Below, piece by piece: positions 1 to 5,350 of a DNA stretch of 5,461 nucleotides. A program made the position numbers and the translations under genes. This stretch comes from Actinomycetes bacterium. GTDB lineage: Bacteria; Actinomycetota; Acidimicrobiia; Acidimicrobiales; Bog-793. Numbering within the stretch: position 1 is the first letter of the stretch; every line of letters begins with the position of its first letter. The notes beneath the pieces are model-generated. The model saw only the letters and a list, made by a program, of their open reading frames with translations. It had not been told where the DNA came from and did not search any database. The DNA lies in NCBI GenBank assembly GCA_021823365.1, contig JAKAOD010000242.1, forward strand, positions 1 through 5,461, written 5' to 3'.

Positions 1-151
1 CGACCTGCTCGAGGGCGGAGAAGACGCCTTCGGTCAGGTCGGCCGGCGTCGTCGAGCACTTGCCGGCGGCGTAGTCGCGCCCGTGCTCGTCGTAGGCGAC
101 GACGTCGGTGAAGGTCCCGCCGATGTCCATCGACACCCGGTAGCGGCTCAT
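1..151 (-). CDS. Hydantoinase A / 5-oxoprolinase family protein, N-terminal fragment (gene continues past the left edge)
   Basis: Only the first 50 codons lie in the window. The translation begins MSRYRVSMDIGGTFTDVVAY. The DIGGTFTD block at residues 9-16 is the N-terminal signature of the HyuA / N-methylhydantoinase A / 5-oxoprolinase / acetone carboxylase beta superfamily, an actin-like ATPase fold whose loop binds nucleotide phosphate. The following stretch, with a CSTTPADLTEGV-like segment near residues 32-43, also fits the family. Members carry out ATP-dependent hydrolysis or carboxylation of cyclic amides or ketones in the cytoplasm, usually with a HyuB partner encoded next door. The substrate cannot be told from 50 residues. 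The ATG at 151 has no clear Shine-Dalgarno sequence of its own, and its first bases overlap the stop of a 9-codon frame as ATGA. The alternative in-frame GTG at residue 6 (GTGTCGATG) is possible but has no better ribosome site. The gene diverges from two XRE-cupin regulators, which probably control it. Confidence 0.9.
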   Translation of the reverse strand, partial: MSRYRVSMDIGGTFTDVVAYDEHGRDYAAGKCSTTPADLTEGVFSALEQV

Positions 152-177
152 CGCAGGAACAGGACGCTTCTGATCAT
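148..177 (-). CDS. Possible 9-residue leader peptide coupled to the hydantoinase start
   Basis: On the minus strand GGGAGGT (190-184) is followed, 6 nt later, by an ATG at 177 that opens the frame MIRSVLFLR and stops at TGA (150-148). That TGA overlaps the hydantoinase ATG (151-149) as ATGA. This is the best ribosome binding site in the divergent region, whereas the hydantoinase start itself has none. The arrangement suggests that ribosomes load at the minigene and reinitiate at the enzyme start (translational coupling). No homology can be assessed at this length. It could be a chance frame, or the strong site could serve an unrecognised longer start, but no ATG, GTG or TTG in frame with the enzyme lies between the site and position 151. 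Confidence 0.4.
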   Translation of the reverse strand: MIRSVLFLR

Positions 178-205: not shown

Positions 206-242
206 TTCCTGCGCCCCAGGAGATGCTCCTGTGAGACAGGAA
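206..242. promoter_or_regulatory. Two tandem dyad operators, 20 bp apart
   Basis: Site A (206-222) reads TTCCTG-CGCCC-CAGGAG and site B (226-242) reads CTCCTG-TGAGA-CAGGAA. Each is a perfect TCCTG-N5-CAGGA inverted repeat with different spacers, and the two centres (214 and 234) are exactly 20 bp apart, about two helical turns, so dimers would bind on one face of the DNA. Site B would cover about -7 to +10 of the predicted hydantoinase transcript and site A about +14 to +30, a repressor-like position. For the divergent regulator promoter they lie upstream, around -16 to -52. The natural candidates for binding are the adjacent XRE-cupin proteins. As RNA, CAGGAG-ATG-CTCCTG (217-231) could also form a small hairpin. 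Confidence 0.65.
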
Positions 243-270
243 TGTTAGGATCGCGCGCCATTTGAGTCAA
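242..270 (-). promoter_or_regulatory. Sigma-70-type promoter for the hydantoinase gene
   Basis: Read on the minus strand, TTGACT (270-265, 5 of 6 to TTGACA) is separated by exactly 17 nt from TAACAT (247-242, 4 of 6 to TATAAT, with the key T, A and final T kept). Predicted transcription starts near 235, giving a leader of about 57 nt before the minigene ATG at 177. The -35 lies inside the palindrome TTGAGTCAA (262-270), which could also be a protein site. The tandem dyads begin at the downstream edge of the -10. Confidence 0.55.
243..251 (+). promoter_or_regulatory. Possible extended -10 promoter for the XRE-cupin operon
   Basis: TGTTAGGAT fits an extended -10 (TGn followed by TAGGAT, keeping the important first T, the A and the last T). 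No good -35 is visible 16-18 nt upstream, so it would rely on the TG extension or an activator. Transcription would start near 258, about 50 nt before the GTG at 310. It overlaps the minus-strand -10 (242-247), so the two divergent promoters would compete for the same bases. Evidence is modest. Confidence 0.3.
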
Positions 271-309: not shown

Positions 310-873
310 GTGGCCGTGGACGAGGTCGCGAAGAATGTGGGCCGCCAGCTCCGGCTCCTCCGGCGCTCCCGCGGCATGACGCTCGCCGACCTCGCGCGCC
401 GGGCCGGCTGCAGCGACGGCTACCTCTCGAGCGTGGAGACCGGCGCGACGACTCCCACGCTCAGCTCGATATCGACGCTCGCGGCGGTGCTCGGCGCGGA
501 CATCGGGGCGTTCTTCCCCTCTGACAAGGAGAGCGCCGCGCACGTGCACAGGGCGTGCGAGGGGCACCGCCTACGGATCTCGCCCCGCGCGAGCCAGACC
601 TACACGATCCTGTCGGCTCGCCGCCTCGAGCCGTCGTTCACCGGGCTCGTCGAGGAGATCCTCCCCGCCGAGGACGACACGTCCTACCGCTACTTCGGCG
701 AGCGGTTCCTCGTCATGCTCGACGGCGCGGTCACGCTCAGGGTCGGCGCCGAGACCTACGCCCTCGGGCCCGGCGAGACGATTCACTACTCGTCGCATCC
801 CGACCACCTGCTGCGGGTGACCTCCCCGGAGCCGGCGCACATACTCTGGGTCGTCACGCCGGCACTGCTGTGA
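310..873 (+). CDS. XRE-family transcriptional regulator with C-terminal cupin domain (first of a pair)
   Basis: A 187-residue protein with the PuuR/SutR-like architecture: an XRE helix-turn-helix at residues 10-65 (core LADLARRAGCSDGYLSSVE, with the recognition helix around 35-45), then a linker and a cupin_2 beta-barrel at about 115-184. Such proteins bind DNA as dimers and sense a small ligand in the cupin, usually controlling a neighbouring catabolic operon. The motif-1 region (126-140) lacks the HxH metal ligands of enzymatic cupins. Motif 2 keeps PGETIHYSSHPDH (154-166), so a purely sensory role is likely. The GTG at 310 was chosen because an in-frame stop at 292 limits extension. GAGG at 303-306 is close to it, and the GTG at 316 is better spaced and could be the true start. 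The stop overlaps the next gene as GTGA. It diverges from the hydantoinase gene, which is its likely target. Confidence 0.9.
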   Translation: MAVDEVAKNVGRQLRLLRRSRGMTLADLARRAGCSDGYLSSVETGATTPTLSSISTLAAVLGADIGAFFPSDKESAAHVHRACEGHRLRISPRASQTYTILSARRLEPSFTGLVEEILPAEDDTSYRYFGERFLVMLDGAVTLRVGAETYALGPGETIHYSSHPDHLLRVTSPEPAHILWVVTPALL

Positions 874-1436
874 CGACGTCGAACGACGACCAGGATGTCG
901 TGGGAACGCGATCGCTCGCGGAGCGTCTCGGGCTCCGCGTCCGGGAGCGCCGCGCCGAGCTCGGGCTCACCCTCGCCGACGTCGCCGAGCGCGCGAGCTT
1001 GTCGATCTCCTACCTCTCGGCCGTCGAGAAGGGGGTCAACCTGCCGTCCCTCTCGACGCTCGTCAAGATCACCGACGCGCTCGAGGTGAGCATCCCGACG
1101 GTCCTCGCGGAAGAAGGCGAGAACCGTGTGCGAGTCGGGCGCCTTCCGGATGGCGCGCCGGCGCTGGTCGACCTCTCCCACAGCGAGCTCCAGCTGCGCG
1201 CGCAGGTCCTGCGTGCCTTGCCGGGCTCCTCCGGGGAGATCCCGCTGCCGACCAAGGACCACGACCTGTTCGTCTATGTCTTCGAAGGCGACCTCGTCGT
1301 GACGCTCGCCGGCCAGTCACGCATCGCGCTCGGCGCAGGCGACGCCCTCGACGCGCGCTCGGAGCCACGCCTCGCATGGGAGAGCGCGCAGGGGACCACG
1401 ACCCTTTGGACCACCTGCCCGACGAGGCTCGACTGA
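870..1436 (+). CDS. XRE-family regulator with degenerate cupin-like C-terminus (second of the pair)
   Basis: A 188-residue paralogue of the preceding protein. The helix-turn-helix lies at residues 20-78 (TLADVAERASLSISYLSAVE at 34-53, then a LPSLSTLVKITDALEV segment). The C-terminal half (about 128-183) has the alternating hydrophobic strands of a cupin (LFVYVFEGDLVVTLAGQ, then RIALGAGDAL) but no histidine cluster in either cupin motif. It should therefore not be a metal enzyme, and may sense a ligand or only dimerise. The GTG at 870 overlaps the TGA of the first regulator as GTGA. The absence of a Shine-Dalgarno sequence there fits translational coupling and roughly balanced synthesis. The frame is open far upstream to 555, but that part overlaps the first regulator out of frame and has no regulator-like sequence. 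A GTG at 900 is an alternative start. The stop codon sits in the loop of the terminal hairpin. Confidence 0.88.
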   Translation: MTTSNDDQDVVGTRSLAERLGLRVRERRAELGLTLADVAERASLSISYLSAVEKGVNLPSLSTLVKITDALEVSIPTVLAEEGENRVRVGRLPDGAPALVDLSHSELQLRAQVLRALPGSSGEIPLPTKDHDLFVYVFEGDLVVTLAGQSRIALGAGDALDARSEPRLAWESAQGTTTLWTTCPTRLD

Positions 1437-1640: not shown

Positions 1641-4085
1641 ATGGCTACGACGACAGACGACCCGTCTCCGACCCCGACGTCCTTGCCCACGAGGACGTCC
1701 CGGCCCCATCCTGCGGGGCTCGCCGTCGCGGGAACGCGCAGCCGAGGACGACTCCTGTGGGCAGTCGCGGCGGTCCTGGTGGCCGGTGTCGCCATGGGGA
1801 GCTCGATGCGCGCGGCGAGCGCCGTGGCTCGTGGCGACGGCCAGAAGGCGCGCCGGGAGCTCACGCTCTCCTCGGCCGAGATCACCGCGGACATCCAGCT
1901 CTCGATCCAGCACGAGCAGGACCTTGTCGTGGCATTGCAGGCCTTCCTTGCCGGAATGCCGAACGCCACCAACGCGGCGTTCCTGGCCTGGGCGAGGTCG
2001 ATGCACGTGATGCAGCGCTATCCCGAGCTGCTCGGGTGGGGGGAGGCGGTGATCGTGCCGGCGTCGCGGCTGGCAGCGTTCGCCGCGAGCGCGACCGCAC
2101 ACCCCGTCGGGCGGCTCGGGCCCGGTGGCTCGTTCCAGGTCGTCCCTCCGGGCCGCCGGCCCTACTACTGCTTCATCCGCCTCGACGAGGGTCGCACCGC
2201 TGCCGACGCGCCACCGGCAGGCTTCGACTTCTGCACCGGAGACGTCGGCGCGGTGAACCTGGCGGCGCGGAGCTCCGGGAAGGGCTCCTACATACCGGTC
2301 ACGATGGGGACAACCACGTCGCTCAGCGTGGAGACACCGGTCTATCGCGGCGGGTCCGTCCCGCCGAGCCCCGCGGCCCGCCGCTCGGCGTTCATCGGCT
2401 GGGCCGGGATGGGGATCGTCCCGAAGGTCGTCTTGGACCGAGTCCTCGCGGACCACCCCGACATGGCGGTGACCCTCCGCTACGGAGCCGGCACCTCGGC
2501 GATCGCGTTCAGGGCTGGCTCGGCTCCTCCGGGCGCGGCCACGACGACGATCCGCCTCCACAACGGCTGGAGCATCGAGACCTCCGGCGCCGTGGCGCGC
2601 GCCGGGTGGTTCGCCAACGCGAACGCGTTCGGCCCCCTTCTCGGGGGCATCGCGCTGAGCGTGCTGCTCGGGGCGCTCGTCTACGTGCTCGGCACGGGCC
2701 GCTCGCGTGCGAACGAGCTCGTTCGCCAGCGGACCGAGGAGCTTCGCCACCAGGCCCTCCACGACGCGCTCACCGGGCTTCCGAACCGGGCGCTCGTCTT
2801 GGACCGGATGGAGCAGATGCTCGTGCGAGCGCGGCGCAACCAGCTCGCCGTCGCCGTGCTCTTCATCGACCTCGACGAGTTCAAGGGCGTCAACGACACC
2901 CTCGGCCACAAGGCCGGCGACGACCTGCTCGCGGCGGTCGGCGCGCGCCTCGCCGGCGCCGTCCGCGCGGGCGACACGGTCGGGCGCCTCGGCGGGGACG
3001 AGTTCGTCGTGCTCGTCGAGGGCACCTCGCTCACCGCCGGCGCGGAGGTCGTCGCCGAGAAGCTCCTCCTGGTCCTGTCGACGCCCTTCACCCTCCCGGC
3101 GAGCGACGTCCCGCTGTACCTGACGGCCAGCATCGGCATCGCGACAGGTGACCGAGCGCAACCCGAGGAGCTGCTCCGTGACGCCGACATCGCCCTCTAC
3201 CAGGCGAAGGCCGCCGGCAGGCAGCGCGTCGTGGTCTTCTCCCCGGCGATGCACAGCGCCATCGAGCACCGGCACCAGCTGGAGGTGGACCTCCACCTCG
3301 CGCTCGACGCCGGGCAGTTCTTCCTCCTCTACCAGCCGATGATCGACCTCGGGACGAGGCTCTTCACCGGCGTCGAGGCCCTCCTTCGCTGGGACCACCC
3401 CGAGCGAGGCGTCGTCATGCCCGACGAGTTCATCCCCGAGCTCGAGGCGAGCGGCCTCATCGTCGCGGTCGGGGCCTGGGTGCTCGAGGAGGCCTGCCGC
3501 CAGGGAGCCGCCTGGCAGGCCATGGGCTACCGCATCGCCATCTCGGTCAACGTCTCGGGGCGTCAGCTCGCGCTCGACCGGATCGCGGACGACGTCCGCA
3601 GGGCCGTCGTGGCAAGCGGGCTCGATCCGGGTCAGCTCGTCCTGGAGCTGACCGAGACCACCCTCATGGACGACGTGGACGCCGCGGTCGCTCGCCTCGC
3701 CCCGCTGAGGGCGCTCGGGGTGCGCCTCGCCGTCGACGACTTCGGAACGGGCTACTCCTCGCTCGCCTACCTCCGCCGCTTCCCGATCGACGTCCTGAAG
3801 ATCGACCGGAGCTTCGTCTCGGGGATCGCCGACTCGCGTGAGTCCGCCGCGCTCGTCCACACCCTCGTCCAGCTCGGCAAGGTCCTGGGGCTCGAGACCG
3901 TCGCCGAAGGCGTCGAGGACGACAACCAGCGCTTGCGCCTGCAAGCCGAGCCTGTCGACACCGGCCAGGGCTTCCTCTTCTCCCGGCCGCTCGACGCCGC
4001 GGCAGTCGGTCGGCTCCTGGAGCGATCCGCCGCCCAACGCGAGGCGACGAGCCCGATCGAGGAACCGGTTGCGGAGGAGGCCTGA
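1641..4085 (+). CDS. Membrane-bound bifunctional diguanylate cyclase/phosphodiesterase (CHASE-like, GGDEF, EAL)
   Basis: An 814-residue protein. A Pro/Thr-rich cytoplasmic tail is followed by a first membrane segment at 38-53, an extracytoplasmic sensor at about 55-328, a second membrane segment at 331-351, then GGDEF (about 370-530) and EAL (about 545-795). The sensor resembles CHASE (RYPELLGWGEAVIVP, then RPYYCF and SVETPVYRGG) with two cysteines, C177 and C198. The cyclase keeps DALTGLPNR at 375-383, metal-binding D410, GGDEF at 451-455 and the inhibitory RxxD site R442-D445. The phosphodiesterase keeps EAL at 579-581, N637, E669/E672, the DDFGTGYSS loop from 699, K720, E756 and Q776. Both reactions, 2 GTP to cyclic di-GMP and its cleavage to pGpG, therefore look possible; which dominates cannot be read. 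The ATG at 1641 follows GGGGAG (1628-1633) at good spacing. It is a single-gene unit, convergent with the protease gene. Confidence 0.95.
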   Translation: MATTTDDPSPTPTSLPTRTSRPHPAGLAVAGTRSRGRLLWAVAAVLVAGVAMGSSMRAASAVARGDGQKARRELTLSSAEITADIQLSIQHEQDLVVALQAFLAGMPNATNAAFLAWARSMHVMQRYPELLGWGEAVIVPASRLAAFAASATAHPVGRLGPGGSFQVVPPGRRPYYCFIRLDEGRTAADAPPAGFDFCTGDVGAVNLAARSSGKGSYIPVTMGTTTSLSVETPVYRGGSVPPSPAARRSAFIGWAGMGIVPKVVLDRVLADHPDMAVTLRYGAGTSAIAFRAGSAPPGAATTTIRLHNGWSIETSGAVARAGWFANANAFGPLLGGIALSVLLGALVYVLGTGRSRANELVRQRTEELRHQALHDALTGLPNRALVLDRMEQMLVRARRNQLAVAVLFIDLDEFKGVNDTLGHKAGDDLLAAVGARLAGAVRAGDTVGRLGGDEFVVLVEGTSLTAGAEVVAEKLLLVLSTPFTLPASDVPLYLTASIGIATGDRAQPEELLRDADIALYQAKAAGRQRVVVFSPAMHSAIEHRHQLEVDLHLALDAGQFFLLYQPMIDLGTRLFTGVEALLRWDHPERGVVMPDEFIPELEASGLIVAVGAWVLEEACRQGAAWQAMGYRIAISVNVSGRQLALDRIADDVRRAVVASGLDPGQLVLELTETTLMDDVDAAVARLAPLRALGVRLAVDDFGTGYSSLAYLRRFPIDVLKIDRSFVSGIADSRESAALVHTLVQLGKVLGLETVAEGVEDDNQRLRLQAEPVDTGQGFLFSRPLDAAAVGRLLERSAAQREATSPIEEPVAEEA

Positions 4086-5300: not shown

Positions 5301-5350
5301 CCCATGACCCAGGGCCCATGACCCAGGGCCCATGACCCAGGGCCCAGGGG
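5301..5350. repeat. Three tandem copies of a 14-bp unit plus a partial copy, upstream of the protease gene
   Basis: CCCATGACCCAGGG occurs at 5301-5314, 5315-5328 and 5329-5342 without mismatch, followed by a partial copy CCCAGGGG (5343-5350). The junctions create GGGCCC palindromes. On the minus strand each unit offers an ATG (5305, 5319, 5333), and only the one at 5319 is in frame with the protease. The array ends 10 nt before the protease Shine-Dalgarno sequence, so it lies in the leader or promoter. Perfect identity suggests recent slippage. It is not CRISPR-like, because there are no spacers. Confidence 0.85.

Follow-up and report, generated by a model that had tools for sequence, protein, structure and literature searches.

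The stretch of DNA analysed here (the window, 5,461 nucleotides) contains, on its minus strand, the start of a hydantoinase gene and, divergent from it, two adjacent genes coding for predicted XRE-type regulators (named R1 and R2), and the short DNA segment separating them carries the same inverted repeat twice. This arrangement raises the question of whether the two repeats together represent an operator and, if so, which protein recognizes it, which of the two flanking transcripts it controls, and whether it belongs to the hydantoinase gene or to the regulators. The features on which the analysis is based are listed in Table 1.

Table 1. Coordinates of the genes, dyads and promoter boxes at the divergent region of the window
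Feature	Position	Strand	Basis
Start of hydantoinase/oxoprolinase subunit A gene (Hydant_A_N), leaves the window	1..151	-	Pfam match
Nine-codon leader ORF (MIRSVLFLR), overlaps the hydantoinase start	148..177	-	ORF comparison
35-bp composite operator (predicted), four half-sites at 10-bp steps, axis near 224	207..241	.	Conservation, symmetry
Dyad 1, TCCTG-N5-CAGGA	207..221	.	Motif search
Dyad 2, TCCTG-N5-CAGGA	227..241	.	Motif search
TAACAT, -10 box of the divergent promoter, adjoining the operator	242..247	-	Promoter scan, locus comparison
Candidate -10 box TAGGAT (regulator direction), -35 box not seen	246..251	+	TANNNT in 4/6 loci
-35 box TTGACT of the divergent (hydantoinase) promoter	265..270	-	TTGACN in 6/6 loci
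Regulator R1, XRE HTH and Cupin_2	310..873	+	Pfam match
Regulator R2 (XRE HTH); C-terminal half divergent, start overlapping the stop of R1	870..1436	+	Pfam match

The dyad pair, the divergent promoter and the regulators

A first-pass annotation of this DNA had described a TCCTG-N5-CAGGA dyad occurring twice without mismatch and with centres 20 bp apart, which was confirmed: dyad 1 (TCCTGCGCCCCAGGA, 207-221) is centred at position 214 and dyad 2 (TCCTGTGAGACAGGA, 227-241) at position 234, each with 0 mismatches, and the four half-sites begin at 207, 217, 227 and 237, i.e. in exact steps of 10 bp. The composite was also reported as a 17-nt inverted repeat (206-222 / 226-242).

The pair abuts a minus-strand promoter, TTGACT-N17-TAACAT (270 to 242), which is the sole promoter-like site found in positions 1-1500 (shuffle mean 0.0). 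Since this promoter ends at position 242 against the element, the divergent transcript would start near position 235, thus placing the element over the start. A divergent TTGACN-N17/19-TANNNT promoter adjoins the element in all six loci that were compared (see below), with a spacer of 17 in five of them and of 19 in the locus designated L002, and the earlier proposal that a pair of operator-like sites covers the point where minus-strand transcription begins is supported.

Both regulators possess an N-terminal HTH domain of the XRE type, as based on matches to HTH_31 (51.1 bits, cut-off 27) and HTH_3 (41.9 bits, cut-off 23) for R1, and to HTH_3 (50.3 bits, cut-off 23) for R2, and R1 in addition carries a C-terminal cupin domain (Cupin_2, 34.5 bits, cut-off 27.2). 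Relatives of R1 comprise 62 sequences at 51-91% identity and one at 33%. The recognition helix of R1 is nearly invariant (D36 and G37 each in 56/62, Y38 in 59/62), and across 63 sequences a GER motif is invariant and HYSSHPxH nearly so.

Conservation of the element and exchange of the neighbouring genes

A scan of genome contigs retrieved three loci encoding R1 orthologues, at 91, 73 and 65% identity (L001, L002 and L003, respectively), to which genome searches added L019 (62%) and L020 (58% R1 identity). Together with the window, these represent the six loci whose DNA was compared, with the alignment anchors being placed by eye. The dyads had been expected to recur in orthologous intergenic regions, and the 35-bp element with its 20-bp offset is indeed located upstream of the XRE-cupin gene in four of the five relatives, whose protein identities range from 58 to 91%; two sites at this fixed spacing are thereby present in five of the six loci (the window, L001, L003, L019 and L020). 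Across the window, L002 (with its degenerate element), L003, L019 and L020, the near-identical L001 being left out, mean pairwise identity over the 35 bp amounts to 0.56, as compared to 0.25-0.40 in eight flanking blocks. One point against an operator reading is L002, where the element is degraded despite an R1 that is 73% identical: its first dyad, TTCTG-N6-CAGAA, is one base longer, and its worn second dyad is shifted by one base. At positions 2739-2772 of L002, a different perfect 8-bp inverted repeat (GTCCACTT / AAGTGGAC) extends across the worn second dyad and the -10 box, and this is perhaps a changed operator. Four weak relatives at 32-41% identity (L016, L017, L022 and L023), in which the element was not seen by eye in approximately 330 bp of upstream sequence, were included in none of these counts.

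Genome searches retrieved few R1 orthologues. They were found in at least 2 of 296 genomes in the class of G002 (G002 itself and G240, where the two matches are weak) and at least 1 of 394 in the class of G003; in at least 3 of 397 in the order of G003 and at least 3 of 198, two of them weak, in the order of G001; in at least 2 of 24, 1 of 17, 1 of 35 and 1 of 150 in the families of G723, G003, G001 and G002, respectively; and in at least 1 of 236 in the phylum of G003, these search sets being overlapping and only part of the first-look candidates having been scored in the larger ones, so that orthologues may be missed. A search of plasmids returned no relative at E 1e-20.

When the composite was used as a pattern allowing up to 3 mismatches, it was found exclusively at the promoter of the regulator in G001, G003, G723 and G834, and was not found in G002. 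Allowing up to 2 mismatches, it was found in 4 of 239 genomes in the order of G003, three of which (G003, G723 and G834) are precisely those that yielded R1 in the search of that order (at least 3 of 397). In the fourth, G847, for which no R1 match was reported, the composite precedes a tRNA-Gln gene by 11 bases and looks like chance. A backwards control pattern produced 10 matches in 9 of the 239 genomes, and lone composite matches at 2 mismatches can therefore be due to chance. Because the pattern was drawn from the known loci, their recovery follows by construction, and the informative part is its scarcity elsewhere. The assignment of the dyads to the XRE-cupin proteins, originally proposed from proximity, is now also backed by conservation and by co-occurrence with the gene.

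The genes facing the regulators differ from locus to locus. On the minus side of L001/L024, a 114-codon ORF without Pfam match is accompanied by genes for hydantoinase A (assigned by sequence likeness to the window), hydantoinase B, a Peripla_BP_4 protein, an ABC ATPase and an amidohydrolase, and in both L001 and L002 the hydantoinase is preceded on the divergent side by a small ORF lacking a Pfam match. In L019, the divergent side encodes two permeases and an SBP_bac_5 binding protein of the peptide type, an M24 peptidase gene lying at a greater distance, and in L003 the divergent gene specifies a GNAT acetyltransferase; the contig of L020 is too short for divergent neighbours to be recovered. 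In the window, L001, L002, L003 and L019, the genes adjacent to the regulator thus encode enzymes or small-molecule transporters. The tie of the dyads to the hydantoinase gene, as drawn in the first-pass annotation, did not hold, given the peptide-transporter operon (L019) and the acetyltransferase gene (L003) beside the regulator and its site, and a hydantoinase-specific signal is ruled out by the same two loci. Since the divergent genes differ between loci, the predicted operator is linked to R1/R2 and not to the neighbouring operon, which can be exchanged; this is a clear case in which a regulator keeps its operator although the genes under control are replaced.

The second regulator gene directly follows the first in all five loci where this can be judged, the contig of L002 being cut. 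With respect to its C-terminal half, R2 did not match Cupin_2 (cut-off 27.2) in the window and L001, scored below the cut-off in L003 (24.9) and L020 (21.2), and scored above it in L019 (28.5).

Several further features of these loci were observed. The place of the nine-codon leader ORF is taken by a 114-codon ORF in L024 and by a 116-codon ORF in L002, neither with a Pfam match; the leader of the window has 105 codons fewer than its L024 counterpart, in frame, and the stop-start overlap is present in both. Just past the R2 gene of the window, a G-rich short repeat (GGTGGTGGGTGGTGGG, 1470-1503) was seen by eye and is possibly quadruplex-forming. Downstream of R2, positions 1641-4085 encode a CHASE-GGDEF-EAL protein, and no ORF of the size and strand of this gene was found after R2 in L001. 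At positions 5301-5342, three head-to-tail 14-bp units (CCCATGACCCAGGG) are located at the start of a trypsin/PDZ gene, each unit holding a CAT, i.e. an ATG on the minus strand.

The predicted operator and its known counterparts

Judged from its sequence, the element very probably functions as an operator and belongs to a known type, being a predicted palindromic site within the predicted core promoter of the adjacent operon, and we consider it likely that it serves the adjacent XRE-cupin regulator R1, possibly together with R2, in repressing the divergent operon, although R1 and R2 are both candidates for the binding protein. In such a mechanism, two regulator dimers would occupy neighbouring positions on one face of the DNA, each spanning one dyad whose half-sites are 10 bp apart, and would mask the divergent transcription start along with about the first 30 transcribed bases. 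RNA polymerase would then be kept from opening or leaving the promoter, and the uptake or breakdown operon (hydantoinase in the window) would remain off. This complex may in addition lie over the -35 region of a weak promoter that serves the regulator genes, and a small molecule bound in the cupin domain would be expected to dislodge the protein. The analysis shows the element, its conservation, its position next to the promoter, its rarity in genomes and the pair of regulators; binding, dimers, repression, ligand release and self-control are inferred, with the repression, the ligand and the stoichiometry being derived from the published family.

This proposal can be compared to the XRE-cupin proteins of P. 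aeruginosa with determined regulons, which, according to PMC7901475, inhibit transcription and bind beside their own gene, mostly at core promoters, with palindromic motifs being given for PsdR, PauR and ErfA. These local Pseudomonas repressors likewise combine an HTH with a cupin, have a core-promoter palindrome beside their own gene, and target enzymes or transporters. PsdR in particular is described as controlling a peptide-binding protein and a dipeptidase (PMC7901475), which resembles the L019 orthologue facing a peptide-type binding protein, permeases and an M24 peptidase, and the Pseudomonas units appear there as local and transferable (PMC7901475), similar to the R1/R2 site with its exchangeable operon. 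This likeness concerns the architecture. Unlike the Pseudomonas repressors, the element analysed here is associated with a different operon, two tandem dyads 20 bp apart and two adjacent regulator genes, and is found in Actinomycetota.

In Pseudomonas putida, DbuR protects 44 bp over one 20-bp palindrome and a predicted -10 box, as stated in PMC12724383; it is similarly an XRE regulator divergent from its operon, yet it involves one palindrome of another sequence, whereas the element of the window lies just downstream of the -10 box. A further comparison is offered by the restriction-modification controller C.Esp1396I, for which PMC4321490 describes a tetrameric complex on 35-bp DNA with two operator sites. 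The two systems have in common two adjacent operator sites within 35 bp and HTH proteins, but C.Esp1396I regulates restriction genes. The R1/R2 pair does not classify as a C protein, i.e. a regulator of a restriction-modification system, its neighbours being hydantoinase, transport and other genes. C.Esp1396I is not known to carry a cupin domain.

A literature search retrieved no study of such an Actinomycetota XRE-cupin pair, nothing joining hydantoinase, XRE, cupin and operator, and no hydantoinase repressor or operator in Actinobacteria, and the string CCTG was not found in the available part of PMC12565409. The present element would provide an XRE-cupin pair of the Actinomycetota with a specific operator that can be tested.

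Half-site architecture and alternative readings

All arm symmetries are perfect in the window and L001. When L002 is left out, the outer half-sites TCCTG / CAGGA are identical in all five loci and the inner ones vary, such that the dyads of L003, L019 and L020 lack internal symmetry (arm matches at 2-4 of 5 positions), which is a further point against the operator reading. Because the inner arms differ in these three loci, a single 35-bp composite describes the element better than a pair of identical dyads does.

This pattern allows for a two-protein operator, in which R1-R2 mixed dimers would place R1 on the outer and R2 on the inner half-sites, symmetrically about position ~224. We regard this as somewhat unlikely; it is a sub-case of the R1 operator favoured above and is not exclusive of it. 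The constant outer and variable inner half-sites are consistent with mixed dimers, as is the position of R2 directly behind R1 in 5/5 judgeable loci, and the inner pair of L019 (CTAGA / TCTAG) is symmetric at 5/5 positions about the overall axis and at 3/5 within each local dyad. However, the inner pairs of L003 and L020 match about the overall axis at only 2/5 and 3/5 positions, and the covariation of the inner arms consequently rests on one locus; moreover, a homodimer with a loose inner site accounts for the same pattern. An extended, and more doubtful, form of this reading would be a two-paralogue XRE-cupin switch, in which R1-R2 mixed dimers occupy a nested, 10-bp-phased palindrome of four half-sites, two cupin sensors with different ligands jointly gate an interchangeable uptake operon, and promoter, operator and regulator pair form a cassette that recurs before different catabolic operons. 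If the two paralogues do share the site, it would represent a simple two-input metabolic switch.

The R1 operator could also act on the regulator genes. The first-pass annotation had placed a -10 box on the plus strand just past the element and had suggested that one protein controls both directions. A TANNNT sequence does begin at the fourth or fifth base past the element in four of the six loci (the window, L001, L002 and L003), compared to 5 of 768 positions in the flanks, although this count is weaker than it looks since its TA is common to the minus-strand -10 box. The plus-strand -10 box is plausible. For TAGGAT of the window, no -35 box was seen at a spacing of 16-19 bp, and TANNNT is absent at that place in L019 (TAGGTA) and L020 (TAGGTC). 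From the sequence, control of both directions by the element is plausible and no more than possible. It is, by comparison, improbable that the regulator mainly activates its own genes from a position just upstream of this promoter: the placement of TANNNT and the missing -35 box would suit an activator, but L019 and L020 lack TANNNT whereas the divergent promoter is kept in 6/6 loci, and the studied P. aeruginosa XRE-cupin proteins are inhibitors (PMC7901475).

Even less credible is that the repeats function as RNA hairpins in the divergent leader, as an attenuator or riboswitch-like element. A 5-pair stem is possible from each dyad, but with a predicted start near 235 dyad 2 would be transcribed only in part, folding of the leader (235-178) does not surpass that of its shuffles (z -0.42; 71/200 as good), and L003, L019 and L020 show weaker local pairing; RNA hairpins are disfavoured on these three grounds.

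That the dyads are short palindromes without function is the least probable reading of all, since, although each has just ten fixed bases and a bare single dyad is present at 3, 4 and 6 places in three genomes (two of the three places in G001 being the dyad pair itself), distant relatives retain both position and spacing, and a repeated pair of identical-arm 5+5 dyads was seen in only 2 of 20,000 dinucleotide shuffles of positions 152-309, requiring an equal spacer (3-8) and a pair within 60 bp, settings picked after the site was seen. The overall number of dyad matches in the window at 0-2 mismatches (four) is not unusual, being reached by 66 of 200 shuffles; the two further matches, with 2 mismatches each, are located at 3118-3132 and 3883-3897, both within the 1641-4085 ORF. 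Finally, a perfect 8-nt inverted repeat (CGCAGGAA / TTCCTGCG) at positions 152-159 and 206-213 joins the hydantoinase start to dyad 1, and is possibly an extra half-site or the product of chance.
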